NCBI GenBank assembly: GCA_013140705.1
Contig: JABFSH010000005.1
Span: forward strand, 1-64,000
Length of the DNA stretch: 64,000 nt
Reading direction: 5' to 3'
Source: Methylococcaceae bacterium
GTDB lineage: Bacteria > Pseudomonadota > Gammaproteobacteria > Methylococcales > Methylomonadaceae
A program made the position numbers and the translations under genes. Shown here piece by piece: positions 22,676 to 44,189 of the stretch. The first letter of the stretch is position 1, and every line of letters starts with the position of its first letter. Under the pieces are notes generated by a model. The model had not been told where the DNA came from. It did not search any database and saw only the letters and a program-made list of their open reading frames with translations.

Positions 22676-25396
22676 ATGCTGGGTAAGCTGGTTAGATTTG
22701 TTATAGGAACCCGTAACGACAGAATTATTAAGAAGAAAAGGAAACTGGTTAAAAAAATCAATGCCTTGGATTCTGAATATCAAAAATTGTCTGATGCTGC
22801 GTTAAAAGCAAAAACTCAGGAATTTCGAGATCGTTTGGCGCAAGGAGAAAAACTGGACAATCTGATTCCGGAAGCGTTTGCTACTGTCAGGGAAGCGTCA
22901 AAGCGAGTCTTTGGCATGCGCCATTTCGATGTGCAGTTGATCGGTGGCATGATTCTGCATAATGGAAAAATTGCTGAAATGAAGACCGGTGAAGGTAAAA
23001 CGCTGATGGCGACATTAGCGGCCTATCTGAATGCCTTGCCCGGAAATGGTGTGCATGTTGTCACGGTCAACGATTATCTGGCCAAACGCGATTCCGAGTG
23101 GATGGGGCGCTTGTATGGCTTTTTGGGCATGACCACAGGCGTGATCATCAGTCAAATGGAACATGCTGCACGCAGACAATCGTATGCCGCCGATATCACC
23201 TATGGTACAAACAACGAATTTGGCTTCGATTATCTGCGCGATAACATGGCGTTCAGTCTGGATCAAAAAGTTCAGCGAGAACTGAGTTTTGCCATCGTCG
23301 ACGAGGTGGACTCCATTCTGATTGATGAAGCCAGAACGCCCTTGATTATTTCCGGGGCGACTGAAGACAGCACCGAAGTCTATGTCAAAGTCAACACCCT
23401 TATTCCGTTCCTGACCAAACAGGAAAAAGAAGACGGCCCCGGCGATTACTCGGTTGATGAGAAGTCGCGCCAAATTTATCTGACTGAATCAGGTCATGAA
23501 CGTATCGAAGATCTCATGGCTGAACACGGTTTGATGTCTGAAGGTTCAAGTCTCTATGATGCAGTCAACATTCGCTTGATGCATTACATCAATGCTTCAT
23601 TGCGCGCTCACGTCTTATTCAAAAAAGATGTTGATTACATTGTATCCGAAACCAAAGAAGTGATCATTGTTGATGAGTTCACCGGTCGTGTGATGCCTGG
23701 ACGGCGCTGGTCTGAGGGCCTGCATCAGGCGATTGAAGCCAAGGAGCGCGTGCCTATTCAAAATGAAAATCAGACGCTCGCGTCCATTACTTTCCAAAAC
23801 TACTTCCGCTTGTATCACAAACTGTCTGGCATGACGGGAACGGCTGATACCGAAGCCTTTGAACTGAACAAGATTTATGGTCTTGAAGTTGTCGTGGTAC
23901 CTACTCATCGGCCCATGATCCGTAATGATATGGGCGACATGGTTTACTTGACGACTGATGAAAAATATATCGCCGTCGCCAATGACATCAAGGATTGCGT
24001 GCAACGTAAACAGCCTGTATTGGTTGGCACCACGTCGATTGAGAATTCCGAACGTCTCTCTGCTTTACTGAAAAAATTGGACATCAAACACGAAGTTTTG
24101 AATGCCAAGCAGCATGAACGTGAAGCGCATATTGTTCAACAGGCCGGTATGCCGGGTGCGGTCACGATTGCCACCAACATGGCCGGTCGCGGGACTGATA
24201 TTGTGCTCGGGGGTAATCTGGATGCCGAGCTCTCCACCTTAGGTCCGGATGTAACGGATGCCGACAAGGAAGCGGTACGTGCTGCGTGGCTGGCTCGTCA
24301 TAACCAGGTGATTGCCAGTGGCGGTTTACACGTTATTGGCTCTGAACGTCATGAGTCTCGCCGTATCGACAATCAATTAAGAGGCCGATCCGGACGCCAG
24401 GGTGACCCCGGCTCCTCACGGTTCTATTTGTCTTTACAAGACGATTTAATGCGTATTTTCGCTTCCGATCGAGTTGCGTCATTAATGCAGAAACTTGGTA
24501 TGGGTAATGGTGAAGCGATTGAACATCCGTGGGTTACTCGCGCCATCGAAAATGCACAACGCAAGGTGGAGAATCGCAACTTTGACATTCGTAAAGAAAT
24601 TCTCGCCTATGATGACGTGGCCAATGATCAACGTAAGGTTGTCTATGCGCAGCGTAATGAACTGATGGCGGCAAAAGAAATTTCCGACATTATTACCGCC
24701 ATCCGCGAAGATGTCGTCAACAAGTTGATCACGCAGTACATCCCGGCCAAAACGATGATGGAGCAATGGGATATCAAGGGACTGGAAGAGCATCTGCATC
24801 AGGAGTTTAATGTCGATATTCCACTGAGTAAAATGCTTGAGGAAGACCACACATTGCAGGAGATGTCCTTACGTGCCCGCATAATCAGCATTCTGGAACA
24901 AAGCCATAAAGATAAGGAACAGCAAATTACTAAAGATGTGATGCAGCACTTTGAAAAATCGGTGATGCTCCAAGTGCTGGACAACAGCTGGAAAGAGCAT
25001 TTGTCAGCCATGGATTATTTGCGTCAGGGCATACATTTCAGAGGTTATGCGCAAAAGGATCCTAAACAGGAATACAAGCGTGAAGCCTTTGAAATGTTCA
25101 CCAATCTTCTGGAACACATCAAATATGAAGTGATAGGCATACTGTTTAAAGTGCAAGTTAAACAGGAAGAGGATGTGCAGGCCATTGATCAACAGATGCA
25201 GGCACCTCGGGAAATGCGCTTCGATCATGCAGAAGCGCCGGCTCTGGATAATTTCAGTCAGCAAGGAGAGAGTGACGATCCCGAGAAGTCTCCGGAGTTG
25301 CCTTATGTCAGGGAAGGCATCAAGGTGGGCCGTAACGACCCATGTCCTTGTGGTTCCGGTAAAAAATACAAACAATGTCACGGAAAGCTCAGTTAG
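22676..25396 (+). CDS. secA: Preprotein translocase ATPase SecA
   Basis: SecA drives post-translational export of unfolded proteins through SecYEG at the inner membrane. The 906-residue length is standard. Walker A is in [20 protein letters not shown], the DEAD-type site in [22 protein letters not shown], and [15 protein letters not shown] and [20 protein letters not shown] belong to the second ATPase domain. The C-terminus has the SecB- and lipid-binding Zn motif [14 protein letters not shown]. The gene stands alone, with its own promoter and terminator; the usual neighbours (lpxC, argJ, mutT) are absent on both sides. Confidence 0.98.
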
Positions 25397-26265: not shown

Positions 26266-29200
26266 ATGACGTCACGACACCAATATATTCTCGATGGCTT
26301 GTTTTCAGCAACGGATCCGGCCATAGCAGAATCGCGTAATAACTACCTTCTGATTTTATGTTGCGCGATTGCCCTTCTGCTAACGGGATGCTTTACAAAG
26401 GAAAAGCTGGATCATAAAGCAGATGGGACGCAATCGCAGTCCCATCAATCCGCATGTGACCCTAATACAGCGCCAAGCGACTCTAATACAGTGACAGCCG
26501 AAGTCGTTGCACTGGAACAAATTATTACTTACAACCGATTTGGTGCATTTAACCCAGCGGGTATGGTGTATGCGCTAAAAAAAGACGTCGTTGATGAAAA
26601 TGGTGAAGATCTTTCTTCTCGAACAGAGTCAGAAATGGTGAAACTCGCCGGTAAAGTCAGACTTCGAGACAATAAAAGGCCAAGGCCGCTCGTACTTCGT
26701 GTGAATGAATGCAATTATCTAAAGGTAAAGTTCTGGAATTTATTGTCACCCTTGCCAACGCTACACAGCACTTTCCAACGGCCTGATTTTCCAAAGGGAG
26801 GAATACAAAGACACGCCGTACAAACGATTATTCCTGAGGGAGCCAGTCAAACCGATTTATCATCCCCGCCACGCGATCCCCAACTTCCGAACAGTTTTCC
26901 TTTTCCGAGCCAGGAAGAGCCGGATTATCCCACTACACGGGCGGCCTCTATTCATGCGAATGGTTTGGATTATGTGCCGATCAAACCACAAATTTGTCAT
27001 GACCCGGAACAAAATAAAATAATCGAAACAGCCTGTAAAAATACTGGAAAAAATATGGGTGCGGATGGTGCGAATGTCGGCAAAAATGCCAACTCATTGG
27101 TTGAGCCTGGAAAATTCACAATATATCAATGGCTTGCCCGTCAAGAGGGTGGCTATTTCATGTATTCGGCAGGCGCGCTCGCGGGTGGAGAAGGTGATGG
27201 CGGTCAACTCGGCCTGGGCTTGTTTGGTTCGATTAATGTTGAGCCAGCAGGCTCCAAATGGTATCGATCTCAAGTAACCTATGACGATCTAAAATGCTTG
27301 GATGATAAATCCTGTGAGGCGAATTATAAAAATGGCCATCCCTACAGTGATCTGGATTATCAACGCCTTGCCATTTTGAATGATGATAATGAAATTGTGC
27401 ATTCAGATTTAAATGCCATCATTTATCAGCCAAATACCCAGTCCGGTGATAGGAGTGAATTAATGGAATCAGGGCTGAAATGCTCTGAGCAATCACCGGG
27501 ATCGAGCTGCGGCATGTCGTTTCGCGAATTCACCACCATTTTTCATGACGAGAATAAAGTTTTTCAGGCTTTTGCTGAATTATCTGATGAGGGTAATCCT
27601 GTCAGCGCAATTGCTGATGGCATGGCCATTAATTATGGTTCCTCGGGTGTGGGTTCAGCGGTACTGGCAAGCAAAAAATCTATAGGGCCCGCGAAAGATT
27701 GCAAGGATTGTAAACTGGAAGAATTCTTTTTAAGTTCATGGGCCAATGGCGATCCTGCCATGATTGTTCGTCGCGACATTCATGGAAAAGCCGTGGCCGC
27801 CCTGTATCCTGATGACCCATCCAATGTACATCATGCTTATCTTGGCGACCCTGTACGGTTTCGGAATATACACGCAGGGCCTAAGGAGACTCATGTATTT
27901 CATTTACATGCGCACCAATGGTTACAGGATAAAAACGATCCGAATGCCAATTACCTGGATTCGCAAACCATTTCGCCCGGTTCTTCCTATACCTACGATA
28001 TTCAATACGGTGGCGGGGGTAATCGAAATTTAACGGTGGGCGACGCCATTTTTCATTGCCATTTATATCCTCATTTTGCAGCAGGCATGTGGGAACTCTG
28101 GCGAAATCACGATGTGTTTGAGGATGGTAAGCCAGGCCTCTTTGATGTCAAAAAAAATCCTGATCCTCGCGTGCGGAATTTGCCAGACCATGAAATAGAA
28201 GGCGGCACGCCTAATCCAGCGATTGTTCCCATTCCTGGTGCCCCATTGGCGCCCTTGCCTACGGCAGAGTTCCGGGGGTACCCGTTCTTCATCGCCGGTG
28301 TTCCCGGACACAGACCACCACAGCCGCCTTTGGATATGGCCAGAGATAATCAGGGCAAGGAGCTAAATGGCGGGTTACCTCGGCATGTGATTACCGATGC
28401 TCGAACTTTTCCAGCGGAGGCGTCTGAAATGCAGCCGGACGTGCTGCTGGATGAGGTTGGCGATCAGGAAGAAAATAAAGCTGCGCGCTACATTGCGAAG
28501 CGGACCTGGAAACTCAACAGCGACAAGAATAATGTGGTGATGGCTGCAAAGCTCAAATCCGCAACCTTGAAGATGCTGCCTCAATGCGGCACTCAAGACG
28601 AATTATTCGCGATGGCTTTTCATGCAGGTTGGAATAAGTCAACGATAACGGGATTGAAGCAGGGAATACAGCCAGACAATTTGCCTGACAATATCTGGCA
28701 GGCATGCAAAGACGAGTTCAAAGCAGTCTTGGTAAATTTGGATGACTCATTTCAATGGAAGTATCAAGCGAAAGCGACTGAATGGCCTATGAATCGAAAA
28801 ACTCACGATCCGGCTATGCCCACCTTGAAACCGATGATTCCTTTGTGGAAAGGTTTGGGTTATGAAACTGCAAAGTCAGCGTATCCGGATGATCATGGGG
28901 TCTCAACAACCTACGATCCCGGCAACAAATTCCGGGTCAATGGTTTTGCGCCTGCACCAGGAGCGCCTTTTGCTGATCCTTGTCCAACGGAATATTACAA
29001 TGATACGGCCAAACTCGAAGGCCCTGGGATTTTAGTAAATCGTCTGGATCCCAGAATCTATAAATCGGCCTACATTCAATTTGACATGACCGTCAACAAA
29101 TATGGATGGCATGATCCACAAGCGCGCATGCCGGTTCTTGAAGAGGATGCCGCCAATACAATCAATGGCACTCGCTTGGCCGAACCACTATTTTTCCGTG

Positions 29201-32200
29201 CCAACTCCGGCGATTGCATACAATTCCAGGCAACCAATTTGATTCCAAGTGTATTAAATCTGGACGATTTTCAGATTTACACGCCCACAGACACCATTGG
29301 CCAGCATATTCATTTGGTAAAGTTCGACGTGACCTCGTCCGATGGCTCTGCTAATGGCTGGAATTATGAAGACGGCACTTTTTCACCTGATGAAGTGAGG
29401 GAGCGAATTGAAGCCAGTAAGCAGCCGGGTGGCTCCGTCGTTCAATGGAATAACCAGCCCCATAAGTCTCTGGAACCCATGACGTATCGTTTGCCATCGG
29501 GCAATTCGAGAACACGTGAGCTTGGCCAATGTTCCACGAATCCCCACGAGAATAATAAAAAGCATCCCTGGTGCGGCGCGCAAACAACAGTACAGCGTTG
29601 GTGGGCCGATCCTGTCTTGAACGATCAATGGAAAGACAGAACCATGCGAGCCGTATTCACCCATGACCACTATGGACCAAGCTCACATCAACAACATGGA
29701 TTTTATGCAGCGCTAATAGTTGAGCCCAAAGATTCCGTATGGACGCAACTGAGTGCTTCCCCTGAAAAAGTTGTAAAGCCGGTGGCGGGTAAATCGATCC
29801 TGGATTGTTCCCGAGTATCAAGCGCTATTGGAAATAAAGCCCTGGGCGGTGCGCTGAACGGCAAACCGGCGATATGTGCCGATCGTCAGGACGGGGGGCC
29901 GACCTCCTATGCCGCCAACATAGGCTTTATCGACAAAGCGAGTAATGTGGCTAAAAATGAAGATGTGCGCCGCGAATACAACCTTGCCTTTGCAGATTTT
30001 GCGATTCTTTATAATGCCGATATGCGCCCCGTAAATCCGCCCAGTCGTCAGGCGGATTTGCTGCTGCCGCATGTCGTTCGTGATGGTCTGAAACCGAAAC
30101 CGGAAGGAATATCGACGGAAGATCCCGGCACACGCCTACTGAATTACCGCAATGAACCCATTCCTTTGCGAATTGCTGAGGAAGATAGCGGTTCACGTTC
30201 CAGGAACATTGAAGGGTCGTTGGAATATAAACAAAAAACGGAGTGTAAGGATTTTAGTGCTAATCCGGCAAAAGTCGTTGACTGCCCTGATGCAGAAAAT
30301 GCAAACGATAATATTTTAAGAGTGCCCACTGGACCGGGTGACATGTCAAATGTGTTCAGTTCGATATGGCACTCAAATACGGCCTTCGATGGTGGCAAGC
30401 CTTCCGCCTGTCATGGTTCGGCAAGCAAGGAAAAGCAGAAAAAATATGCAAATATACGTTTTCAAAAGCTGACTGGAAATGCCCCTAACGAAGTCGTTGA
30501 CGCCAAAACATTAAAAGCGCTCTTGCAGCAGACCGAAAATGATCGATGCGAATTCGTTGATCATCTATATTCGCAGGAACCCTGGCGAAATCCAGGGGGT
30601 GGTGATCCTTCGACCCCGGTACTTGCAACCTATATTGGTGAACCGCTTAAACTGCATTTGATTCAAGGAGCCCAGGAAGAGCAGCATGTGTTTTCCATGA
30701 CCGGAATGAAGTGGCTAGCTGAGCCGGCTTCTCCTGATTCGGGATATATGAACGGCCAGCAGATTGGAATTTCCGAGCATTTCGAGTTTGATGTTCCCGT
30801 GCCATCCGGTGGTACCAATGTCACCGACTACTGGTATGGGTCGCCCGCTGTCGAAAACCTGTGGGATGGCATGTGGGGATTGGTACGAAGTTATGGCTTT
30901 ACGAGTGATAACAAACACCAGAACATCAACTTAACGGCTCTTGAAAGGCTACCGCAAGTTGAGCCGCCTCCTCTGGTGGCTGGTGAACTTTCGAGCTGTC
31001 CTGAAGTATTATCCAATGATAAACAACACCATAAAAACCTCTTTGTTGGTGTCTGGCTAGCCAGTGATTTGCTTAAAACATCAAATTCTCAGGGCAGGCT
31101 TGTTTATAACAGCCGATTCGACATCAGTGATCCGAATGCCATCATTTTTGTTCAGCAAGATAATGCCTGGCGCGAAAAAGCTCTGGCTCCCGAGGCGATC
31201 CTGCAGAAATTACAGGATCGCTATCAATCAGGAAAAAAAGTCGAGCCATTAGTCCTTAGAGTCAACGCAGGTGATTGTGTGACAGTTCATTTCGTCAATT
31301 ATTTGCCCGAGAACATGGCAGGCAAAGATGGACCGGATGTTAGACAAAGTTGGAGCTACAACCTGCTGCCTCCTATTGTTAATGGCTTTAACTTCAATCA
31401 AATACAATCGTCAAGCTGGGTGGGGCTGCAACCGCAGCTATTAACATTTAGCGCCAATAATAATGATGGAGCCAACATTGGATTTAATAGTTGCAATGCA
31501 AACGTGAGCACGGCGGACGGCCAAACAAGTTGCAAGAATCCGCTGCCGGCATTGTCGCGTTCCATGCCTAAGCCGTGCAAGAAAACGTTATCCGGTGCGT
31601 TTGGCGATTGTCGACCCAAAGCAATTAACTGGTATGCAGGGGATGTTAAATTCAGCAAGCAAAAGCCGCTGGCTGCAAACGGACTGGATGTGACTGAGCG
31701 GGATGATATTTCCGAAAATGAATTCAAAAAATATGATTATTATGTTGAGTCATTTAGTGCCAATGGTGAAACCGGCTGGGCGCAATACACGCCCATAGAA
31801 TATGGTGCCGTGAACCTGCGTGATTTTGGAGACACCATCAAGCATAGTTCGCATGGCGCAATTGGGGCTGTAATTGTAGAACCAAGAGATGCAACCTGGA
31901 TGCTGCCGGAAACAAATCCGTTGCAAACTCAAATGAGTACCAAAATTACTCTGCAAGATTCAAAGCAGTCGTTTCACGAATTTGTATTACTGATGCAGGA
32001 CGATCTTAGCTTACAGCAACATAAACAGCCCATGCCAAATCATCGCATGGCTGATGACGCTGAAGACACTGGACAGAAAGGCTTCAATTACGCTACGGAA
32101 CCTCTATGGGCAAGGAATGGCGTGGGTACATCAGGTGCGGATTTTAATGTACTGAATCAGGTCGATTACACCCATACGTTAAGCGCTTATAAAAATATCG

Positions 32201-32583
32201 CTCCCTGCGGGCAGTCCTGCGATCCACAAACACCCATTTTTGAAGCGCCTGCTGGCGCCGATGTACGCTTCCGTGTGGTTCATCCCGGTGGACATTCAAG
32301 GCAACATGCTTTTGTTCTTCATGGGCATAACTGGGATTACCAACCCTGGGCCAATGCTTCAACAAAATTAACCGATGCGGATAATAAGGAACCAAGAACG
32401 GCAAGGATAGGTGCTATCGGTGGTATAGGTCCCAGTCGCCATGTGAATATTTTGGCTAAAGCCGGCGGCAAATGCGAAGTTCCGGGTGATTATTTGTTTC
32501 GTGTACAAGAGCAATTTCAATTTCAAGGCGGCATGTGGGGAATTTTTAGAGTTAGCCCAACAGAGAGGGGTTCAAAATGTTAA
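26266..32583 (+). CDS. Giant lipid-anchored multicopper oxidase, MnxG-type
   Basis: A 2105-residue protein. A 24-residue lead is followed by a hydrophobic segment and the lipobox LLTGC (lipidated C42), so it is a lipoprotein outside the inner membrane. The copper ligands occur in the permuted order known for the manganese oxidase MnxG. HVFHLHAHQW (H543-W552) and HCHLYPHFAAGM (H597, C598, H599, H603, M608) come first; the latter is the full type 1/type 3 site. QHIHLVKFD (H1014, H1016) and THDHYGPSSHQQHG (H1133, H1135) follow. The region from about 1250 to 2105 repeats the pattern but has lost most ligands: HVFSMTGMKW at 1474, HSSHGAIGAVIVEP, and a last domain that keeps HAFVLHGHNW (2014-2023) but has FRVQEQFQFQGGMW where HCH should be. 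The likely activity is O2-dependent oxidation of Mn(II) or another metal or organic donor; this is inferred from the family. The ribosome binding site is GAGGAG. It leads a six-gene operon. Confidence 0.9.
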   Translation: MTSRHQYILDGLFSATDPAIAESRNNYLLILCCAIALLLTGCFTKEKLDHKADGTQSQSHQSACDPNTAPSDSNTVTAEVVALEQIITYNRFGAFNPAGMVYALKKDVVDENGEDLSSRTESEMVKLAGKVRLRDNKRPRPLVLRVNECNYLKVKFWNLLSPLPTLHSTFQRPDFPKGGIQRHAVQTIIPEGASQTDLSSPPRDPQLPNSFPFPSQEEPDYPTTRAASIHANGLDYVPIKPQICHDPEQNKIIETACKNTGKNMGADGANVGKNANSLVEPGKFTIYQWLARQEGGYFMYSAGALAGGEGDGGQLGLGLFGSINVEPAGSKWYRSQVTYDDLKCLDDKSCEANYKNGHPYSDLDYQRLAILNDDNEIVHSDLNAIIYQPNTQSGDRSELMESGLKCSEQSPGSSCGMSFREFTTIFHDENKVFQAFAELSDEGNPVSAIADGMAINYGSSGVGSAVLASKKSIGPAKDCKDCKLEEFFLSSWANGDPAMIVRRDIHGKAVAALYPDDPSNVHHAYLGDPVRFRNIHAGPKETHVFHLHAHQWLQDKNDPNANYLDSQTISPGSSYTYDIQYGGGGNRNLTVGDAIFHCHLYPHFAAGMWELWRNHDVFEDGKPGLFDVKKNPDPRVRNLPDHEIEGGTPNPAIVPIPGAPLAPLPTAEFRGYPFFIAGVPGHRPPQPPLDMARDNQGKELNGGLPRHVITDARTFPAEASEMQPDVLLDEVGDQEENKAARYIAKRTWKLNSDKNNVVMAAKLKSATLKMLPQCGTQDELFAMAFHAGWNKSTITGLKQGIQPDNLPDNIWQACKDEFKAVLVNLDDSFQWKYQAKATEWPMNRKTHDPAMPTLKPMIPLWKGLGYETAKSAYPDDHGVSTTYDPGNKFRVNGFAPAPGAPFADPCPTEYYNDTAKLEGPGILVNRLDPRIYKSAYIQFDMTVNKYGWHDPQARMPVLEEDAANTINGTRLAEPLFFRANSGDCIQFQATNLIPSVLNLDDFQIYTPTDTIGQHIHLVKFDVTSSDGSANGWNYEDGTFSPDEVRERIEASKQPGGSVVQWNNQPHKSLEPMTYRLPSGNSRTRELGQCSTNPHENNKKHPWCGAQTTVQRWWADPVLNDQWKDRTMRAVFTHDHYGPSSHQQHGFYAALIVEPKDSVWTQLSASPEKVVKPVAGKSILDCSRVSSAIGNKALGGALNGKPAICADRQDGGPTSYAANIGFIDKASNVAKNEDVRREYNLAFADFAILYNADMRPVNPPSRQADLLLPHVVRDGLKPKPEGISTEDPGTRLLNYRNEPIPLRIAEEDSGSRSRNIEGSLEYKQKTECKDFSANPAKVVDCPDAENANDNILRVPTGPGDMSNVFSSIWHSNTAFDGGKPSACHGSASKEKQKKYANIRFQKLTGNAPNEVVDAKTLKALLQQTENDRCEFVDHLYSQEPWRNPGGGDPSTPVLATYIGEPLKLHLIQGAQEEQHVFSMTGMKWLAEPASPDSGYMNGQQIGISEHFEFDVPVPSGGTNVTDYWYGSPAVENLWDGMWGLVRSYGFTSDNKHQNINLTALERLPQVEPPPLVAGELSSCPEVLSNDKQHHKNLFVGVWLASDLLKTSNSQGRLVYNSRFDISDPNAIIFVQQDNAWREKALAPEAILQKLQDRYQSGKKVEPLVLRVNAGDCVTVHFVNYLPENMAGKDGPDVRQSWSYNLLPPIVNGFNFNQIQSSSWVGLQPQLLTFSANNNDGANIGFNSCNANVSTADGQTSCKNPLPALSRSMPKPCKKTLSGAFGDCRPKAINWYAGDVKFSKQKPLAANGLDVTERDDISENEFKKYDYYVESFSANGETGWAQYTPIEYGAVNLRDFGDTIKHSSHGAIGAVIVEPRDATWMLPETNPLQTQMSTKITLQDSKQSFHEFVLLMQDDLSLQQHKQPMPNHRMADDAEDTGQKGFNYATEPLWARNGVGTSGADFNVLNQVDYTHTLSAYKNIAPCGQSCDPQTPIFEAPAGADVRFRVVHPGGHSRQHAFVLHGHNWDYQPWANASTKLTDADNKEPRTARIGAIGGIGPSRHVNILAKAGGKCEVPGDYLFRVQEQFQFQGGMWGIFRVSPTERGSKC

Positions 32584-33131
32584 CGATCATAAGCACACCT
32601 GAAACTATACATGGCGTTTCATTTGCATGGAAAGGGATAGAGCCAAATGATGTCATTGGCCCCAGGACGCAACTTGAATTAAATCCAGTGTCACATCTGG
32701 GACTGACCATTACTGGAGACGTGCAATTGAAATGCAGTGAATGCAATGTTTCCGGGGTTTTGTTGAATTTTAATGCCGATGAGAAACTTTTATTGTCCCC
32801 TCGAAAAACCGGTAACTGGGTGGGCATTATTGCCCTGGAATTTAGTGCTCCGGTATTTTCAGCAGGTGCAAGAATTGGTGTGGTAAGCAAAAACTCGCCA
32901 CGGCCTTTTCGGGGGATTATCCGGGCCATTGAAACAAACGGTAAAGAACATATACAGTCATTTCGAACACAAAGCACTAATACACCGGACAATTCGGCAT
33001 TATTTCTTGGTGCAACGAGCACAGGAGCAACGGCGCGTCTTAAAAAACTGGAATTTGATGTTGAGCCTGTCATCGGTGAGCCTTCATTCAAATTGTTTGC
33101 AATTGGTAGCTTGATTTATAAAACCGCTTAA
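32577..33131 (+). CDS. Hypothetical protein in the multicopper oxidase operon
   Basis: A 184-residue protein that I do not recognise. Its ATG overlaps the oxidase stop by 7 bp and has a strong upstream GAGAGGGG, so translation is coupled. No signal peptide or membrane segment is visible, which is odd among exported neighbours. The pattern of alternating hydrophobic residues suggests a beta sandwich (GLTITGDVQLKCSECNVSGV, WVGIIALEFSAPVFSAGARIGVV). One CxxC (C53, C56) could bind a metal or form a disulfide. It might be an oxidase assembly partner; this is inference from position only. Confidence 0.8.
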   Translation: MLTIISTPETIHGVSFAWKGIEPNDVIGPRTQLELNPVSHLGLTITGDVQLKCSECNVSGVLLNFNADEKLLLSPRKTGNWVGIIALEFSAPVFSAGARIGVVSKNSPRPFRGIIRAIETNGKEHIQSFRTQSTNTPDNSALFLGATSTGATARLKKLEFDVEPVIGEPSFKLFAIGSLIYKTA

Positions 33132-33137
33132 ATCTCA

Positions 33138-35084
33138 ATGAAACTCAAATATTCTGTTTTGAATGGTCTTTTGTTGATGGTGGCATTAAAAGCCGATATT
33201 GGTTTTGCGAAAAATGTCCAGGAGCATGTTGAGAATAACCTCCAATTGCAATTGACGCTCTCTTCAAAGGCAACGATTAATCCTGTCGGCGACACCAACA
33301 CGAATTATCGGATAACGTTACGAACCACAGATGCCACGACGCATCAGTCCGTTGGCAACATCAACCCAAGAGCCTGGTTGTCTCTCCGCCGCTCTGAACA
33401 AGTCGCAGTTGAAACCAGTTGTGAAGCTAAAGTCCGCAGTTTTGCCAGCGGCAAGTTAACAACGCGTGCTGATGTCGATCTGAACAGTTATTTATTGATA
33501 ACGCTTAATCAGGATAAGACGGTGGCATTGATCAATCCACAGATATCCTGGTCCAATAGTCAATTGGCAGGCATCGTTCAGCTTCCGGAACAGGGCCTGG
33601 ACTGGGTGCTGACAAAAGATGGTAAATGGCTTTATGTGACGATGCCTGAAGCCTCAGCGGTCGCGCTCATTGACGCTACGACACATAGCCTGGTAACCAC
33701 AATTGCCACCGGTTCCGGTAGCAAGCCGACTCGAATTGCCCTCACGCCTGATGAACAATCCCTTTGGGTGGGATTGGATCATACGCCGACAATTGCTGTC
33801 TTTGATCGCGGCGAAAAACCTAAAGTCAAAATCGTCAGTGTCAATGAAGGGCTGCACCAAATCAGTTTTACGCCGGATAGCCGGATCGCTGTGGTGACGA
33901 ATACCGCTGCCAATACGGTATCGATTCTTGACGCGACCACACAAAAAAAACTGGGTGACATCGAGGTGCCCAACACACCGTTAAAAGCCGTTTGGGTTGA
34001 AAAGGCCGAACGGTTTTATGTGTCCTCACTGAATGATACGCAGTTGCGCGTAATCGACCCCGATAAACGGGTGGTCGATGGACAAATTGAAGTAGGTCGC
34101 GGCATAGTCGATATAGCCAGCGATCCTCAGGGTCGTTACCTCTGGGTGGTCAATCAACTTGAGGCGAAAACCACGGTCATTGATTCCGCGACCAATACGA
34201 AGGTGGCTTTTGCGAATGTGACAGCTGAACCGGATCAGATTGCCTTTACGGCAGACTATGCTTATTTTCGGGGACTCGGCTCAGAAAAATTCGCACTGGT
34301 AAACCGGAAACAACTTGAAAGGATTGCAGGTGGAAAGCCAGGCGAGAAAATAATCGAGCTGTCTGTGACACAAATCCAGGCAGGCGAAAAAGCGCCAGCT
34401 ACGTTGCCCGATGCGGTTGGGGTTGCAGCCATGATTGTTTCGGTGCCAGAACAGAATGGCGTAATGATTGCCAGTGCGCCCGGTAGAACCATTTATTACT
34501 ACGTCGAGGGCATGATGGTGCCGATGGGTACATTCGATAACTATCGACGGATTCCGAGAGCCTTGATGATTTTAAACCGTAGCCTGCAGGAAACTGCGCC
34601 AGGCGTATTTGAAGCCCCCGTGAGTATCGAAAAAACAGGTAATTACGATATAGCGGTGATGATCGATCAGCCTCGTCTTCTCCATTGTTTCACCGCTAAA
34701 TTTGAAGGCGAATTCAATAATGATAAACAAAAAGAGCAGACAAAAATCATGCTGGAACTGTTGCCGTTAAAAGATCAGCCGCATGCCAGCGCGGAAACAT
34801 TTATAAGCTACAAATTACGCGATGCCTCAACGAAACAGCCCGTTACCGGTATCCAGGATGCTCGATTATTGGCTTTTGAGCCGCCTGGTTTGTGGCAAAA
34901 GCGCGAGTGGTTGCAGGAAGTGGAAAAGGGGATTTATCAGGCGACGGTCATTTTCCCACATGCAGGGCGCTTTAATCTGCTGATTGAAGCCTTGTCGAAA
35001 CGATTGGAATTCACCGGGCAATCACTGCAAATGGTTGAGGTTCAAGATTCTTTGCCCAAAAGCCAACGCTTAGAGCAAAAATAA
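33138..35084 (+). CDS. Secreted YVTN-type beta-propeller protein
   Basis: A 648-residue exported protein with a Sec signal peptide (cleavage probably after GFA, residue 24 or so). An N-terminal beta domain of about 110 residues with two cysteines is followed by propeller blades of the YVTN type: GLDWVLTKDGKWLYVTMPEA, PTRIALTPDEQSLWVGLDH, HQISFTPDSRIAVVTNTAA, VDIASDPQGRYLWVVNQLEA. From about residue 400 there are further beta-rich domains (GNYDIAVMIDQPRLLHCF, GRFNLLIEALSKRLEF). Propellers of this kind often act as scaffolds or bind ligands or metals in the periplasm. It starts 6 bp after the previous gene, so co-expression with the multicopper oxidase is likely. Confidence 0.85.
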   Translation: MKLKYSVLNGLLLMVALKADIGFAKNVQEHVENNLQLQLTLSSKATINPVGDTNTNYRITLRTTDATTHQSVGNINPRAWLSLRRSEQVAVETSCEAKVRSFASGKLTTRADVDLNSYLLITLNQDKTVALINPQISWSNSQLAGIVQLPEQGLDWVLTKDGKWLYVTMPEASAVALIDATTHSLVTTIATGSGSKPTRIALTPDEQSLWVGLDHTPTIAVFDRGEKPKVKIVSVNEGLHQISFTPDSRIAVVTNTAANTVSILDATTQKKLGDIEVPNTPLKAVWVEKAERFYVSSLNDTQLRVIDPDKRVVDGQIEVGRGIVDIASDPQGRYLWVVNQLEAKTTVIDSATNTKVAFANVTAEPDQIAFTADYAYFRGLGSEKFALVNRKQLERIAGGKPGEKIIELSVTQIQAGEKAPATLPDAVGVAAMIVSVPEQNGVMIASAPGRTIYYYVEGMMVPMGTFDNYRRIPRALMILNRSLQETAPGVFEAPVSIEKTGNYDIAVMIDQPRLLHCFTAKFEGEFNNDKQKEQTKIMLELLPLKDQPHASAETFISYKLRDASTKQPVTGIQDARLLAFEPPGLWQKREWLQEVEKGIYQATVIFPHAGRFNLLIEALSKRLEFTGQSLQMVEVQDSLPKSQRLEQK

Positions 35085-35119
35085 AACATTGAAGTCATGA
35101 TTCACGGTTGGAGGATGTT

Positions 35120-36676
35120 ATGAAAAGATTTACATTAGTGAAGCTGATAGTCGTATTGCTACTCATCAAGTCTGGATTTGCAGTTGCCGCTGATCCGGTT
35201 CCAACCACACCATTCAATGTAATTGGGTATATTCAGCAGTTCAGGATGTGCCAGACTGGCGACGGGACATGGTGCGCGAATCCTGATGATCCTCGGGCTG
35301 GCGCTATCATGAAGATCAATGGTATTACGGTTATCATTCCTAAAAATAGTTACATTGTCATGCCCGGTTCCTATCTAAAACCGAAAGATATTTTTGATAA
35401 AAAAATACCAACAGCAAGTGCTGGGCAAAGTGGTCTGGCGCTAGAGGACATGCCACCCCCCGCCTTTCCTTATGTGGCCGACTTAATAGGAAATATTGTG
35501 GATGGCGACTATATCGCCGGGTTGGCCAGTATTACACAGATACCGTTACAAACGGCGTCGGGATTTATAAAGTCAATAAGCAGTGCCGGGGAATTATTAA
35601 TCGGGCCAGCGCTGGATAATCCGGCCGTATCGGCCCGTGTGCGCTTGAACGATCCCAAACTGGGGTCTGGCACGGGGCGTTATGGCATGGCACAAACTGC
35701 CGATGAACGCTTTAAAGCCGATCAGGATAACCCAACCATTCATGCGGCGACTGGTTATCCTTTATGTGTTCCCAGTGCCACACCGCCGATAAATACGGAG
35801 TGTCCGTTGTCAAATCGACCCAATGGCGCTGATGGCAAGCCGCTGCGCAGATTTACAGTGGGAACCACATTTGCCGTGAGTGATGCGCCTCCCTGTGGCA
35901 GCGCTTGCGATGCTTCAAAAATGGTGCCCCTGGCAGTTGATGACTATGTGACCTATACAGGGATACTCGTCAAGGCTCCCTCTCCTACAGACCCTGATGC
36001 AACCTATATCTCGGTCTCGGCACTTGAGGCAGATTTGGGCATTTATACGGACAAAGGGAAAAACCCTGCTTACGTGTTTATAGAAGAAGCGTTACTGGGT
36101 TCCGGAGGCGCTGCTTTTCCAGGCCTGGATCAAGAAACAGGGCCTGGTAAAGTCATCCCAGGTCAGACTTTGGTTACCCGCTTTCGCATTGTAGGATTTA
36201 CGACCGACCCCAGTAGAAATGTGGATGTGTTTGCGCTTGATGCCAGGATGCCTATTAGCGATTCAAGCAACCAGGGAAAATTCACCGAAAGACTTTTGGC
36301 CAGTATTGCACCTGAACCAATTGCTCCCATGGGCCGCTTTCGGATTACCGTCGATCAGCAGGTTTTTGTGCCGCCGACAAGAGAAATTCGGGCGCGTATC
36401 AATGGCATTGCAGGGTCAAGTGCCCCAGCACCTCAGACAGCCGCCAATGGATTAATTTTTGGGGAATATACGGCGCCCGTCGCAGAGTATATTTTTCCCG
36501 AGGGGCGTGTGTTTGGAGGAAAAAAACCATTGCCGGGTGGGGTACCTGCCAATTTTGAAGATTTGTGCTTCCTTTCCCGGGGTTGGTGGCCTGAAGATGA
36601 GGCCGCGGCACTCGAACCATTGGACCCATGGCCAAGCTCCGGGCATGATCGATTAAGCGGTGTTTTTTGTAATTAA
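35120..36676 (+). CDS. Hypothetical secreted Cys-containing protein
   Basis: A 518-residue protein with a clear signal peptide (MKRFTLVKLIVVLLLIKSGFAVAA). The start is ATG 35120 with GGAGGA just upstream; the frame extends 4 codons further to a TTG inside that site. I do not recognise the family. About nine cysteines are spread in pairs (MCQTGDGTWC, PPCGSACD, PLC...EC, LCF, FCN), suggesting disulfides. Beta-rich stretches with short barrels are repeated (FNVIGYIQQFRMC and YVTYTGILVKAPSPTDPDATYISVS). No cofactor motif is visible. The position between the propeller protein and the SCO chaperone argues for a structural or substrate-binding role in the oxidase system. Confidence 0.8.
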   Translation: MKRFTLVKLIVVLLLIKSGFAVAADPVPTTPFNVIGYIQQFRMCQTGDGTWCANPDDPRAGAIMKINGITVIIPKNSYIVMPGSYLKPKDIFDKKIPTASAGQSGLALEDMPPPAFPYVADLIGNIVDGDYIAGLASITQIPLQTASGFIKSISSAGELLIGPALDNPAVSARVRLNDPKLGSGTGRYGMAQTADERFKADQDNPTIHAATGYPLCVPSATPPINTECPLSNRPNGADGKPLRRFTVGTTFAVSDAPPCGSACDASKMVPLAVDDYVTYTGILVKAPSPTDPDATYISVSALEADLGIYTDKGKNPAYVFIEEALLGSGGAAFPGLDQETGPGKVIPGQTLVTRFRIVGFTTDPSRNVDVFALDARMPISDSSNQGKFTERLLASIAPEPIAPMGRFRITVDQQVFVPPTREIRARINGIAGSSAPAPQTAANGLIFGEYTAPVAEYIFPEGRVFGGKKPLPGGVPANFEDLCFLSRGWWPEDEAAALEPLDPWPSSGHDRLSGVFCN

Positions 36677-36681
36677 AAACG

Positions 36682-37251
36682 ATGATTGCCACAATGAACA
36701 CCCGTAAAGGTATTATGGGGGCAATTCTGATGCTGTCATCCCTATCTGCGATGGCATCGGTTGATTGGGCCATAACGAGCACTCAATATAACGAGACAGT
36801 CGTTGATCAATTCGGAAAAACGCTCCGTTTCTTTGATGATTTGATCAACAACAAAATCGTTGTCATCAATTTTATTTTCACGGACTGCGCCAGTAGCTGT
36901 CCGCTTTCCACCGCCATTTTTCGTCAGGTTCAAAAGCAACTGGGCAAACAACCCGTACAGTTAATCACGATCAGTGTTGATCCGGATAATGATACTCCTG
37001 AGCGATTGCTTGCATTTAGCAATAAATTTGGCGCGGGACCGGGATGGGTTTTCGTTACAGGAGATCATGCGGCTATTTCAGGTTTATTGAAAAATTTTGG
37101 AGTTTATTCCGCTGATAGAAATAAGCACAGTAATATGGTTATTGTTGGCAATGACACGAAGCACCAATGGACCCGACTTTATGGCTTGCCCCAAGCCGAC
37201 GATATCATTTCAGCCCTGAATAAAATTGCTGGAGCCAAAAGGAATTACTAA
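36682..37251 (+). CDS. SCO1/SenC-like copper chaperone
   Basis: A 189-residue thioredoxin-fold protein with an N-terminal hydrophobic signal (GAILMLSSLSAMA). The copper ligands of the SCO family are all present: C69 and C73 in CASSCP and H149 in ADRNKHSN, together with the family block LITISVDPDNDTPERLLAF. SCO proteins deliver copper to cytochrome oxidase or other cuproenzymes in the periplasm, or reduce their thiols. No cytochrome oxidase gene is nearby, so its likely client here is the multicopper oxidase encoded upstream. It starts 5 bp after the previous gene. Confidence 0.92.
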   Translation: MIATMNTRKGIMGAILMLSSLSAMASVDWAITSTQYNETVVDQFGKTLRFFDDLINNKIVVINFIFTDCASSCPLSTAIFRQVQKQLGKQPVQLITISVDPDNDTPERLLAFSNKFGAGPGWVFVTGDHAAISGLLKNFGVYSADRNKHSNMVIVGNDTKHQWTRLYGLPQADDIISALNKIAGAKRNY

Positions 37252-37275
37252 GGATATGAGCTGCTGGCAATATGC

Positions 37276-37365
37276 ATGCAGGTGGTTCGACAGGCTCACC
37301 ACGAGCGGAAAAAAGTGAATAAATTCAATACAAATACCGTTCTACCTGAGCCTGTCGAAGGGCAA
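37276..37365. repeat. Dispersed REP-like palindrome inside the oxidase operon
   Basis: The arm ggttcgacaggctca (from 37282) is the inverse of tgagcctgtcgaa (near 37347-37359). It separates the SCO gene from the cytochrome gene. Its translation (VRQAHHER ... PEPVEG) is a known artefact of such repeats and explains the over-long N-terminus of the next frame. Confidence 0.8.
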
Positions 37366-37419
37366 TTAACAGGAGTTTTGCAAGTACCTCTTCACTACCC
37401 GAATCGGTGTAACGCCCTA

Positions 37420-38997
37420 GTGAAAGCTATTGTTGTCTGGATGTTATTAGTCGTCACAATAACTGCTGCTCATGCGGATCAGGCATTGACAGCTAAAGAA
37501 CTATTGGGACGCCGTATTTATCGTGCCGGCGAGGGTGACAGCCTAAACCCTATTCGCGCAACCCTGGGCTTAAGTGCAGATACGGTTTCTGCCAGCGCAT
37601 TTCCCTGTGCCAATTGTCATGGGCTGGAGGGTGAGGGCAAGCAGGAAGGCGGGTTGAATGTTCCGGCAATAGCGTCGAAGTACGTATTCACTGAATCTCA
37701 AGTCAATCGGCCTCAGAAACAAACATATGATGAAAGTACGTTAGCCCGCGCAATCACCAAAGGCATTAGTTCGGAAAATAGGTCGTTGAGCATGGCTATG
37801 CCCCGATACGGACTGAGCGAATATCAAACGCAAGTGTTGCTTGCTTACTTGAGGCGCTTGGGAACAGCCAGCGATATCGCCCCCGGAGTTACAGTGTCGG
37901 AGGTAAGGTTGGCAACGCTATTGCCTTTAACCGGCCCCTTGGCAGAAACTGGAAAACTACTCCATGCGACCTTGGAAAGTTGCATTGCAGAAATGAATCG
38001 TCAAGGGTCAATTTATGGGCGTAAATTAATACTAACCGCACTGGATTCGGGAAGCACCGCCGAAGAAACGCTTCCCGCTGCCCGGCGGTTGATCTCGGAA
38101 ATTAGACCGTTTGCATTAGTCTCCGGATATTTACCAGAAATTTCGCCGGCGCTGTATGAGTTATTCGTGCATGAAAGAATGCCTGTTATCGCTCCATTGA
38201 CTTTCGAACCCAAGGAAGCTCCGATTGCGGACGCTCCGTTTTTTTATTTTTTGCCCGGATATGCCGATCAGTCCCGCGCCCTGGTTGATTACTGGTTGGA
38301 TCATATTCCTCAAGGCAGCCGATCATCAAAGCCGAAGCTGGCCATCGTTTACGGACATACAAAAAGCAATCGGGACACAATGCCGACTATTCATGCGCAA
38401 ATGCAGCGACACCATTTGAATGTGATGGCAGAGGTCGATATATCATCCATCACACAAAAAACGGATCTGAATTCGATTGAAAGTTTAATGAATGGCCAAC
38501 CTGATGCCGTTTTGTTTCTTGGATCCGCCGGAGAATTCGAAACATTCGGCCATTCGCTGGAAAAGTCGCAACATAAATTCATACTTTTGGCGTTGCTTGC
38601 GATGCTAGGTACTGATGCGTTGACGATACCTGAATCGCCGATAACAAAAATGATGTTAGCGACTCCATTTAAGCAGAACTATGGGGGTTTGGAGTTATTT
38701 GCAGATAGGTTGGAGCAATTTTCCGTGGACTTACAGAGCCCCGTTTTACAACGGATTGCCTGTTCGGCGGTAAATTTTGTCGGGGAAGGCCTAAAAATAT
38801 CAGGTAAAAACGTGAGCCAAAACAATTTTGTTCGTGCATTGGAAGCGATCAACAACTTTCCGGTGGAAATTATGCCACCGCTGCAATTCGATCCGAAAAA
38901 CGGACAAGGCCTAAGAGGCGCTTATATATACACTAAAGATCCGAAATCAGGAGACTTGTCAAAGCTGGAATGGGTGACGCCAATGGATGTCTTTTAG
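37420..38997 (+). CDS. Cytochrome c domain fused to a periplasmic ligand-binding domain
   Basis: From the GTG at 37420 the protein has 525 residues: a signal peptide (MKAIVVWMLLVVTITAAHA), a small class I cytochrome c domain with CANCHG (C63, C66, H67) and a Met-rich distal loop (SLSMAMPRYG). From about residue 145 follows a type I periplasmic binding protein of the branched-chain amino acid receptor kind (RLATLLPLTGPLAETGKLLHATLESCIAEMNRQG, PFALVSGYLPEISPALYELF, YADQSRALVDYWLDH). The longer frame from 37276 reads through the REP element. A heme that sits on a ligand-binding domain suggests an electron acceptor linked to substrate capture or sensing. It probably accepts electrons from, or donates them to, the oxidase. 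Confidence 0.85.
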   Translation: MKAIVVWMLLVVTITAAHADQALTAKELLGRRIYRAGEGDSLNPIRATLGLSADTVSASAFPCANCHGLEGEGKQEGGLNVPAIASKYVFTESQVNRPQKQTYDESTLARAITKGISSENRSLSMAMPRYGLSEYQTQVLLAYLRRLGTASDIAPGVTVSEVRLATLLPLTGPLAETGKLLHATLESCIAEMNRQGSIYGRKLILTALDSGSTAEETLPAARRLISEIRPFALVSGYLPEISPALYELFVHERMPVIAPLTFEPKEAPIADAPFFYFLPGYADQSRALVDYWLDHIPQGSRSSKPKLAIVYGHTKSNRDTMPTIHAQMQRHHLNVMAEVDISSITQKTDLNSIESLMNGQPDAVLFLGSAGEFETFGHSLEKSQHKFILLALLAMLGTDALTIPESPITKMMLATPFKQNYGGLELFADRLEQFSVDLQSPVLQRIACSAVNFVGEGLKISGKNVSQNNFVRALEAINNFPVEIMPPLQFDPKNGQGLRGAYIYTKDPKSGDLSKLEWVTPMDVF

Positions 38998-40489: not shown

Positions 40490-41677
40490 TTATTTATTTA
40501 AATCGGTCTCTTTGAAAAGTACCGTCTTGTTTCTTCCGGAGGCTTTGGCAGTATAGAGCGCATGATCCGCAAAGCCGATTAAAGAGTCAATGTCAATATC
40601 ATCCTGACTAAGCGTATCCGCAATGACGCAATGGACACCAATACTGGCAGTAATATGTATTTCATCCCCTTTGGCTTGCCAGGATAATGAGGCAATTTTT
40701 GTTCTGATTCGCTCAGCAAAAGCTTGCCCCATATCGCTATCGGTATCGGTGAAAATAATAACGAATTCTTCTCCACCAAAACGAACGAGAATGTCGGATT
40801 CGCGAATTTCTTCCCGCACTGAATTGGAAACGTCCTTGAGAACGATATCACCCAATCCATGACCATAGGCATCGTTAATTTTCTTGAAATGATCAAGATC
40901 GAAAACCAAGATGCAAACAGACTGGCCATGTCGTTTGGTTCGAGCCAGGATGGATTCAATTTGCACATAAAAATAGCGGCGATTGTATAATCCCGTTAAT
41001 TCATCCAGCATGGACATGCTTTCGAAATGCTCTTTCAATTGATTGATATCTTCTAAAGCGGCTTCCAGCTTTTTTGTTCTGACTGCAATCTGTTCTTCCA
41101 TTTGTTGCAGCAGTCGATAATTCGTAATTAATTCCCCCATCATGTTTTTGTAAATGAGTAATAAGCGAATATGCCATTCGGAAAAGTAATTCGCTTCCGG
41201 ATGAGATATATTTAAAACGCCTAATAACTCGTTAGCTGCCATCACCGGTACGCTGATAATTGATCCTGGTAGCAGGGCATTGGTTTGCGATATGTGATTG
41301 GAAAATCGAGGATCTTGATTACAGTCATTACAATGCTGCAACGTACCGGTTTTTGCTGCAAGTCCAATAATGCCTTCGCCAATCTTGAATTTTAAAGAAG
41401 ATTGTGCAGCTTTATCCCCCCCCAAATGTTCTTTGATACTAAGGCCGGTTAAATTTACAAGGTAATTTTCCTTATCCAGGATAAAGAACGAACAACGTTC
41501 CATATCCTGATTTTGAATGAGTACCGACAGTGCTTTGAAAATGAGTTCCTTTTCGTTGCCTGATTGCGAATTCAACTCTGAAAGTTCTTTTATCGCCGAC
41601 AGTGAACCCAATAAATCAACAATGATATCCGGAATCTTGGACCGGTTTATGGTTTCACTTATTTCGTCCATAGTCAT
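40490..41677 (-). CDS. GAF-GGDEF diguanylate cyclase
   Basis: A cytosolic c-di-GMP synthase of 395 residues. A GAF-like sensor domain (about 30-200: SVLIQNQDMERCSFFILDKE, IGEGIIGLAAKTGTLQHCNDCNQDPRF) is followed by a coiled coil (EEQIAVRTKKLEAALEDINQL) and a GGDEF domain with the active site RFGGEEFVII. The inhibitory I-site RESD lies five residues before GGEEF, so product inhibition is likely. CNDCNQD in the GAF could bind metal or heme. I start at ATG 41677, four bases after the stop of the HDOD gene; the frame continues upstream inside that gene. It is the last gene of a ygfX-HDOD-GGDEF operon. Confidence 0.93.
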   Translation of the reverse strand: MTMDEISETINRSKIPDIIVDLLGSLSAIKELSELNSQSGNEKELIFKALSVLIQNQDMERCSFFILDKENYLVNLTGLSIKEHLGGDKAAQSSLKFKIGEGIIGLAAKTGTLQHCNDCNQDPRFSNHISQTNALLPGSIISVPVMAANELLGVLNISHPEANYFSEWHIRLLLIYKNMMGELITNYRLLQQMEEQIAVRTKKLEAALEDINQLKEHFESMSMLDELTGLYNRRYFYVQIESILARTKRHGQSVCILVFDLDHFKKINDAYGHGLGDIVLKDVSNSVREEIRESDILVRFGGEEFVIIFTDTDSDMGQAFAERIRTKIASLSWQAKGDEIHITASIGVHCVIADTLSQDDIDIDSLIGFADHALYTAKASGRNKTVLFKETDLNK

Positions 41678-41681
41678 GAGG

Positions 41682-42545
41682 TTATTTTCCACTGATTGAG
41701 AGCGCCGCCAGGTAAATTTTATCTTTATTCGCTCTAATGTCTGAAATGATGGGCTTAATTGTTTTAGCTGATCCGCCAAATGTTTCCAATTGTAATACAA
41801 GGTCATCAACTTCTTGTTCTTCTTCGGCAAGAATTTTTTTTGCCAATTCAACGCAGATCGTTAAAAAAGCAACAAAATTAACTTCATCACCGACGTAATC
41901 ACCATTTTTGAATTCTTTCACAACGGTTTGGTAAACACTCGGTAAATGCCAATGCTCAAGCAGCAAGCCACCGATTTCATATTGATTGTACCCAATGAAA
42001 CGGATTAATTCTTCGGAGATTGAACTGGAATTCTGTTCGGCTTGCGACAGTGCTTGATCCGTCTCTTCGGGAAATAAATGGACGGCAGCAACCAAGCCGA
42101 TATTCAGTATGAGCCCTGCTGTGTAACTGGTTGAAGGCGTCAGGTTTTCATGACGCAGTAGGAGACAAAGTTTGTGACTTAATATTGCCGTTACCAATGA
42201 CCGCATCCATAGTTTTTCGCTTATGAATCGTGGGCACTTTCTGGTATCTAATGCTAAATTCAGTAAAATGCCCAGCGCCAGGCATTTAACCAAATTTAGT
42301 CCGAGAACTCTTATGATGGCTGTTCGCAGGTCGGTTATTTTATTGACATGGCCAAAATAGGCCGAATTGGCCAATCCCAACAATCGGGCGGTGAGAACGG
42401 GCGAAATTGAAATAAGTGCGACAAGTTCTTCAATGTCAATATCAGGATTATTAACAGCAGCAATAATGTTGATGCTTGACACAGGAAGTTCCGGTAGATT
42501 TTTGACTGTGCAAATTTTTAAATTATTGCGGCGTGTATCCGTCAT
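41682..42545 (-). CDS. HDOD domain protein
   Basis: The 287-residue protein is a single HDOD domain, a catalytically inactive relative of HD phosphodiesterases often found with c-di-GMP signalling. It starts with NLPELPVSSINIIAAVNNPDIDIEELVALISISPVLTARLLGLANSAYFG and continues with IIRVLGLNLVKCLALGILL and a helical bundle. Its start overlaps the end of the YgfX-like gene by 23 bp and its stop lies 4 bp before the diguanylate cyclase start, so the three are co-translated. Confidence 0.93.
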   Translation of the reverse strand: MTDTRRNNLKICTVKNLPELPVSSINIIAAVNNPDIDIEELVALISISPVLTARLLGLANSAYFGHVNKITDLRTAIIRVLGLNLVKCLALGILLNLALDTRKCPRFISEKLWMRSLVTAILSHKLCLLLRHENLTPSTSYTAGLILNIGLVAAVHLFPEETDQALSQAEQNSSSISEELIRFIGYNQYEIGGLLLEHWHLPSVYQTVVKEFKNGDYVGDEVNFVAFLTICVELAKKILAEEEQEVDDLVLQLETFGGSAKTIKPIISDIRANKDKIYLAALSISGK

Positions 42546-42978
42546 ATTCTCTCTTATTTTTAATGGCCGTTGTTCTTAGCTTGACAATAAGTTGTCGGTA
42601 ATCGTCTTCGCACAGAGTGTCGGATGCTATAAGAATAGTTAAATCATCGATATGTTGTGACTTAATATTCAGAATTATAACGAAAATTGATGTTAGTGAT
42701 GATTTTAAAATATCCACGGGCTCAAATGTTTTGATAAATAACACTTCCCAATTCGAATGTTCAGTATACCTAAATTGATAATGCTGACGAGACAACCGCC
42801 GAATAATCCAGCAAACATGTAGGCATATTGCAATTAATAGCCCCATTTTAATGGGTAACTGCAAAGAATTGGCAAAACTGGTTATACACGCCAGCAAGTG
42901 TAACAATACCTGCCCCCGCATTAAGCGGGTGGATGGCTTCAGTGTTAACAATAATGCCGATTCGCTTTTTTTTGGCAT
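42523..42978 (-). CDS. YgfX-like membrane protein
   Basis: A 151-residue protein with two hydrophobic segments near the N-terminus (LLHLLACITSFANSLQL and MGLLIAICLHVCWII), followed by a beta-rich cytosolic part (WEVLFIKTFEPVDILKSSLTSIFVIILNIK ... LIASDTLCEDDYRQLIVKL). This is the YgfX (CptA) layout; in E. coli YgfX works with SdhE (YgfY) and lies divergent from ygfZ. Here it is also divergent from ygfZ but no sdhE is seen, and an HDOD gene takes the downstream position. Assignment is by layout and motif, moderate certainty. Confidence 0.75.
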   Translation of the reverse strand: MPKKSESALLLTLKPSTRLMRGQVLLHLLACITSFANSLQLPIKMGLLIAICLHVCWIIRRLSRQHYQFRYTEHSNWEVLFIKTFEPVDILKSSLTSIFVIILNIKSQHIDDLTILIASDTLCEDDYRQLIVKLRTTAIKNKREYDGYTPQ

Positions 42979-43090
42979 GGTCTAAATATTCCGGTAATGG
43001 GTTTGGTTTTTTACATCTTGTCGATTAGGCATAACACTCATCTGTCAAAATATTTCGGATTCAAGCCGTTTATTTATCAGGCATATATGT

Positions 43091-43118
43091 TTTGCCTTTA
43101 CTTAAAGCGCGTTATAAT
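43091..43118 (+). promoter_or_regulatory. Candidate promoter of ygfZ
   Basis: A perfect TATAAT (43113-43118) with a poor -35 (TTTGCC, 16-bp spacer). It lies 40 bp before the ATG at 43158, which supports that start over the longer frame. Confidence 0.5.
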
Positions 43119-43157
43119 TCGGTACATTATTTTAAATGTACACCCTTCAATATACCC

Positions 43158-44147: not shown

Positions 44148-44189
44148 CTATAATTTCAGCCTGACGCTTTTGACTGGAAAACCGCAACA

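Follow-up and report, generated by a model that had tools for sequence, protein, structure and literature searches.

A six-gene locus around a giant MnxG-type multicopper oxidase in a Methylococcaceae genome as a probable subtype of the mnxG operon

The window analysed here is a 64,000-nucleotide stretch of the genome of a Methylococcaceae bacterium, and at positions 26266–38997 it carries six adjacent genes on the + strand, led by a very large copper oxidase. The locus raises the question of whether these genes constitute an undescribed extracytoplasmic system, as a first-pass annotation had proposed, or a form of a system that is already known. The six open reading frames, to which we gave the working names MCO (multicopper oxidase), ORF2, PROP (propeller), ORF4, SCO and CYT (cytochrome), are real and correctly placed. 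The results described below indicate that the locus is a variant of the known mnxG operon, and that its new part consists of the ORF2 and ORF4 families, which are co-inherited with it. We estimate the probability at about 0.6 that it represents a distinct mnxG operon subtype, in which the oxidase most likely oxidizes Mn(II) outside the cytoplasm and ORF2 and ORF4 serve as accessory proteins.

To examine the conservation of the set, an ORF4 alignment was scanned against 84,980 species genomes, which gave 21 loci. ORF4 was the bait and is present at these loci by selection; the other genes were not selected. The MCO, propeller and cytochrome genes were found at all 21 loci, SCO at 20 and ORF2 at 19. 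With the window, a Roseomonas gilardii plasmid and one further genome (G381) included, MCO, PROP and CYT were each present at 24/24 loci, SCO at 23/24 and ORF2 at 22/24. SCO was absent only from the Bryobacterales locus, and ORF2 was absent from Methylomagnum and Methyloglobulus; the longer Methyloglobulus MCO (L078) was checked for a fused copy of ORF2, and there was none. The first-pass annotation had taken the six genes for a unit, a proposal that hung on their conservation together elsewhere, and the counts for the unselected genes bear it out.

The carriers include Methylomonas fluvii, Methylomagnum, Methyloglobulus, another Methylococcaceae metagenome-assembled genome (MAG), Methylocystis, Nitrosomonas, two Nitrospira, Hydrogenophilales, Ottowia, Diaphorobacter, Mesorhizobium, Ancylobacter, Roseicella, Siccirubricoccus, Paracraurococcus, a Bryobacterales MAG and others. 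This recurrence of the set across Pseudomonadota, Nitrospirota and one Acidobacteriota MAG is beyond chance. The ORF2 profile recognized five loci outside its build set (L024, L066, L090, L093 and L094) with E values of 8e-15 to 3e-47, L066 being close to L080, which was used in the build. The gene order was MCO-ORF2-PROP-SCO-CYT-ORF4 at most loci and MCO-ORF2-PROP-ORF4-SCO-CYT in the gammaproteobacterial methanotrophs. In an evenly drawn sample of 388 Pseudomonadota genomes, where the resulting counts are small, ORF2 and ORF4 were confined to one and the same pair of genomes, each of which had the MCO, and a third genome carried a long MnxG-type MCO and neither ORF2 nor ORF4.

We placed the oxidases in a quick MCO tree with a midpoint root, in which several rows are partial. 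The 17 MCOs from six-gene loci lay on one side of a single branch (support of 99 in the Shimodaira–Hasegawa-like approximate likelihood ratio test, SH-aLRT), and the neighbouring group held the Pseudomonas putida-type loci. The window has both the ORF2 and ORF4 families beside an MCO of this clade, and thus belongs to the six-gene subtype. The Nitrospira MCOs were placed among the proteobacterial ones, which suggests horizontal transfer. Moreover, the pairwise distances of all six families were correlated (Spearman 0.66–0.84), with 0 of 300 permutations as high for every pair. These results are consistent with the transfer and inheritance of the six genes as a unit.

The core of the locus has already been described. 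The P. putida GB-1 mnxG operon comprises mnxG, a YVTN propeller, two SCO1/SenC proteins, an ABC substrate-binding protein (SBP) with a cytochrome c domain, and SurA; it is conserved in two further strains (PMC11409713) and in OF001 (PMC8218464). The operons of GB-1, OF001, MS-1 and DSV-1 resemble the window locus in having a MnxG-type MCO first, followed by a YVTN propeller, SCO1/SenC and cytochrome c-SBP genes on one strand with short gaps (PMC11409713), and the same three genes lie downstream of the window MCO. The Leptothrix mof operon and the Geobacter sulfurreducens ompB cluster are similar by gene content, with an MCO, a MofC-like cytochrome c with a periplasmic-binding domain and, in several cases, an SCO, which are the genes that the mof/omp clusters have in common; unlike the window locus, the mof operon has mofB, a peptidyl-prolyl isomerase (PMC5566968). 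The idea of an entirely undescribed system was therefore rejected, since the MCO/propeller/SCO/cytochrome-SBP core is published as the Pseudomonas mnxG operon (PMC11409713, PMC8218464) and the mof/omp clusters are also in the literature (PMC5566968). In contrast, neither ORF2 nor ORF4 is in the published gene list of the P. putida operon, and a search of the open literature for a published description of the ORF2/ORF4 subtype found none.

P. putida-type relatives were also found among the loci examined. In G213 (L072) the order was MCO, propeller, SurA, SCO, SCO and CYT, the last a cytochrome-SBP, and in G359 (L071) it was MCO, propeller, SurA, SCO and SCO, at which point the examined stretch ended. 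These relatives support the assignment of the window locus to the mnxG operon type. As a side observation, the P. putida-type loci L071, L072 and L073 (G093) adjoin type II secretion genes, which suggests dedicated export, and a NarL-type response regulator also stands beside those in G359 and G093.

The MCO gene (26266–32583) encodes 2105 amino acids (aa) with an N-terminal lipobox (LLTG-C, Cys42), and the protein is a predicted lipoprotein. Among its relatives, those of the methanotrophs L076 and L078 likewise have a lipobox, and those of G381 and Roseomonas have none. The protein matched the NCBIfam MnxG model NF041487 with 843 bits (E 3e-253) in 8 stretches and the solved Bacillus MnxG (PDB 9bxa) with an E value of 1.6e-104. 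It is a multidomain cupredoxin protein related to MnxG along its length, and belongs to the MnxG multicopper oxidase superfamily. In an alignment of 28 MCOs, with invariance judged wherever sequence was present, the four classical motifs H543-x2-H546-x-H548, H597-C598-H599-x3-H603-x4-M608, H1014-x-H1016 and H1133-x-H1135 were invariant, and the type-1 and trinuclear copper ligand set (HxxHxH, HCHxxxHxxxxM, HxH, HxH) is complete. The ligands align to 9bxa except that an Ala at residue 340 of the 9bxa chain stands opposite H603; we take this residue to be H340A, a laboratory type-1 copper mutant of Mnx. The MnxG kinship and the copper oxidase nature that had been proposed for the protein are upheld by the matches to NF041487 and 9bxa and by the complete ligands. 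Furthermore, C1089, H1100, C1103, C1771, C1981, C1985 and H2010 are invariant in the six-gene clade and absent or rare in other MCOs. The MnxG of the Bacillus MnxEFG complex is a related multidomain MCO, and its copper-motif regions align with those of the window MCO; it differs in its length of 1227 aa and in its partners MnxE and MnxF, which are small proteins. The ORF2 family gave no sequence match in the PDB.

Mn(II) oxidation is the best guess for the activity, since MnxG proteins are the closest enzymes whose activity has been established and the core of the operon is shared; Mn is thus a putative substrate. The P. putida MnxG is a known Mn oxidase (PMC11409713). In the mechanism that we propose, SCO would metallate the giant multidomain MCO, which as a lipoprotein would reside beyond the inner membrane, probably at the outer membrane with a putative surface location. 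A metal ion, with Mn(II) (and Mn(III)) as the likeliest candidate, would give up electrons singly to the type-1 copper; O2 would receive them at the trinuclear centre, and the resulting Mn oxide would be extracellular. The propeller, the secreted ORF4 and the cytochrome/binding-protein fusion would be extracytoplasmic accessories in assembly, surface anchoring or electron hand-off, and ORF2, probably co-translated with the oxidase and without a signal, would most likely be a dedicated folding or assembly partner; the roles of these four proteins are presumptive. The context fits this reading: MnxG has been reported in Nitrospira MAGs recovered from a rapid sand filter that removes Mn (PMC12070406), and two of the 21 loci have "RSF" in their record names, which we read as rapid sand filter.

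Several results weigh against the assignment as a Mn(II) oxidase subtype. The 843 bits of the MCO are below the NF041487 equivalog cut-off of 3100 bits, so that it does not count as an equivalog of P. putida MnxG (the P. putida-type relatives scored 1924 and 2422 bits), and it lies outside the P. putida MnxG clade, the P. putida-type MCOs examined forming a separate one; the score and the position indicate that the substrate may have changed. At 26266–38997 there is no counterpart of the second SCO or of the SurA-like protein of the P. putida operon. No Mn-oxidizing phenotype was found for the strain or its close relatives. A sigma-54 site would be expected under MnxR control, and such sites were at chance level only within the window, with none in the upstream gap.

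The MCO might instead act on Fe(II), Cu(I) or an organic compound. As a cuprous or ferrous oxidase, the enzyme would handle copper or iron at the surface of copper-hungry methane or ammonia oxidizers, with Mn as no more than a minor substrate. The genome of the host, in all likelihood a gammaproteobacterial methanotroph, holds three PmoA/AmoA-type genes, which agree with such a role, as do the 8 of 21 loci in methanotrophs or nitrifiers and the identity of SCO as a copper chaperone. However, more than half of the carriers, among them Mesorhizobium, Roseicella and Diaphorobacter, are not known to oxidize methane or ammonia, and the closest biochemically known kin is MnxG, not CueO or PcoA; we consider this role unlikely.

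ORF2 (32577–33131, 184 aa) showed no match in Pfam, NCBIfam or, by sequence, the PDB, and the same was true of ORF4; the statement that two of the genes belong to no described family thus stands. The ORF2 family is highly divergent, with 17–49% identity to the window copy, and its common core is FxxPVxAVG ... TAPFxGA ... FD. No signal peptide was evident by eye in ORF2 or its relatives, so that ORF2 is not evidently extracytoplasmic, and the apparent lack of a signal speaks, for this protein, against the location outside the inner membrane that the first-pass annotation had proposed for all six. ORF2 had been labelled a CxxC protein in the first-pass annotation, but the C53-x-x-C56 pair was found in the window copy only, the second Cys alone being common across the family alignment, and a CxxC redox protein was rejected. 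The AlphaFold model (mean predicted local distance difference test score, pLDDT, 82) is a beta-sandwich that resembles CBM22/CBM6 jelly rolls with a best E value of 3e-4, a likeness too weak to settle the function. In a further reading, the MCO would be a laccase-like oxidase of organics such as phenols and humics, or of carbohydrate-bound matter, and ORF2 would bind glycans by its jelly-roll fold. The template modelling (TM) scores of the matches were only 0.36–0.46, which many beta-sandwiches reach, ORF2 has no evident signal peptide, and the MCO belongs with the multidomain MnxG enzymes; a laccase-like function is accordingly improbable in our view.

The gammaproteobacterial MnxG loci of G005, G032 and G052 resemble the window locus in having an MCO, a propeller and a signal-less gene (228–234 aa) abutting the MCO. 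In these loci the signal-less gene is upstream of the MCO, and its kinship with ORF2 was rejected by profile comparison (probability 0.1%). No ORF4, SCO or CYT is adjacent in G005 and G052, and the contig ends in G032. In other clades, the gene immediately upstream of the MnxG-type MCO belongs to another undescribed signal-less family, of 223–234 aa (L019:5585-6271, L020:6037-6723, L021:89-793 and L028:7169-7840), which is unrelated to ORF2 by profile comparison.

ORF4 (35108–36676, 522 aa) has a signal peptide and five Cys that are invariant in the family alignment (C220, C232, C267, C487 and C521). The ATG at 35120 is the more likely start, instead of 35108. The model had a pLDDT of 71 with poor ends, and no confident fold match to it was found. 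The homologue on the Roseomonas gilardii plasmid (L024:18760-20252) is split across two annotated reading frames by a frameshift or a sequencing error. A second copper-oxidase locus was observed in the host genome at G000:C36 ~22000–48000 (L067, L068). It holds a 662-aa Tat-type MCO, a 927-aa MCO, an SCO, an SCO-cytochrome c fusion, an 840-aa di-haem CCP/MauG protein and two long ORF4-family proteins, one with immunoglobulin (Ig)/cadherin tails. Similar loci occur in Paraburkholderia (L029), G148 (L070) and G028 (L022), the last with no ORF4 match detected. Such longer members of the ORF4 family, which carry Ig, cadherin or dockerin tails, were found in G000:C36, Paraburkholderia and G148, each time beside SCO genes, a di-haem CCP/MauG protein and a multicopper oxidase of smaller size. 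The ORF4 domain thus occurs with two distinct kinds of copper oxidase, and the family may partner secreted copper oxidases in general.

The family calls made earlier for the remaining three genes hold in the Pfam/NCBIfam search. PROP (33138–35084) is a secreted YVTN/YNCE-type beta-propeller of 648 aa that matched PF21783 (E 2e-9) and TIGR02276, with a weak YtkA-like C-terminal domain (PF13115, E 3.5e-4). SCO (36682–37251, 189 aa) is a SCO1/SenC copper chaperone (PF02630, E 3.6e-20) with a CxxxC motif, CASSC. CYT (37276–38997, 573 aa as drawn) combines a Peripla_BP_6 domain (PF13458, E 1.9e-27) with a mono-haem cytochrome c (PF00034, E 1.8e-4; CANCH), and CxxCH was found in CYT at 23/24 loci. 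A copy of a dispersed REP-like palindromic element lies between SCO and CYT at 37285–37359, with 13-nt perfect inverted arms at 37286–37298 and 37347–37359; the arm gave 17 matches genome-wide (≤2 mismatches) and the reversed control 0. Because the drawn start at 37276 precedes this repeat and translation from the in-frame GTG at 37420 would begin with a clean signal peptide (MKAIVVWMLLVVTITAAHA), the drawn start is probably wrong and the GTG the true one, which would make the SCO–CYT gap ~168 bp.

The constant presence of a c-type cytochrome gene (24/24 loci) would also suit a respiratory extracellular electron-transfer chain, in which CYT carries metal-derived electrons to the quinone pool or a terminal oxidase, and comparable proposals exist for MofC (PMC5566968). 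Each cytochrome has one haem, however, the operon is without a porin or multihaem conduit, and MCOs themselves reduce O2, so that no chain is needed; we regard such a chain as very improbable. Given the single haem and the lack of a conduit, a sensory, scaffolding or delivery role of CYT is as open as that of an electron partner.

The locus bears on two open questions, namely the identity of the microbes that remove Mn in groundwater filters and the assembly of MnxG enzymes. A sharply defined subtype with two undescribed marker families, carried by methane oxidizers and nitrifiers common in such filters, offers a specific gene set to seek and knock out. A wider proposal, which we put forward as possible rather than probable, is that the locus belongs to a horizontally spread second Mnx class with ORF2 and ORF4 as obligate components, the former an assembly partner and the latter a secreted partner domain of copper oxidases. 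This class would let methanotrophs, ammonia oxidizers and Nitrospira oxidize Mn(II) and would explain part of their Mn removal in drinking-water filters.

MCO and ORF2 overlap by 7 bp, the following gaps are 6, 23 and 5 bp, and the SCO–CYT gap is 24 bp as drawn; we infer a single transcript for the six genes. Promoter and terminator scans yielded no more than shuffled sequences. The upstream neighbour is secA (22676–25396), followed by an 870-bp gap before MCO, and the downstream neighbours, on the opposite strand, are tRNA-Met and ychF; no functional tie of these three to the six genes is evident. Downstream of ychF, two HDOD-domain genes and a GGDEF/GAF diguanylate cyclase occupy 40490–45032 of the window; the title of one paper links cyclic di-GMP to Mn oxidation in Pseudomonas (PMC9765421).

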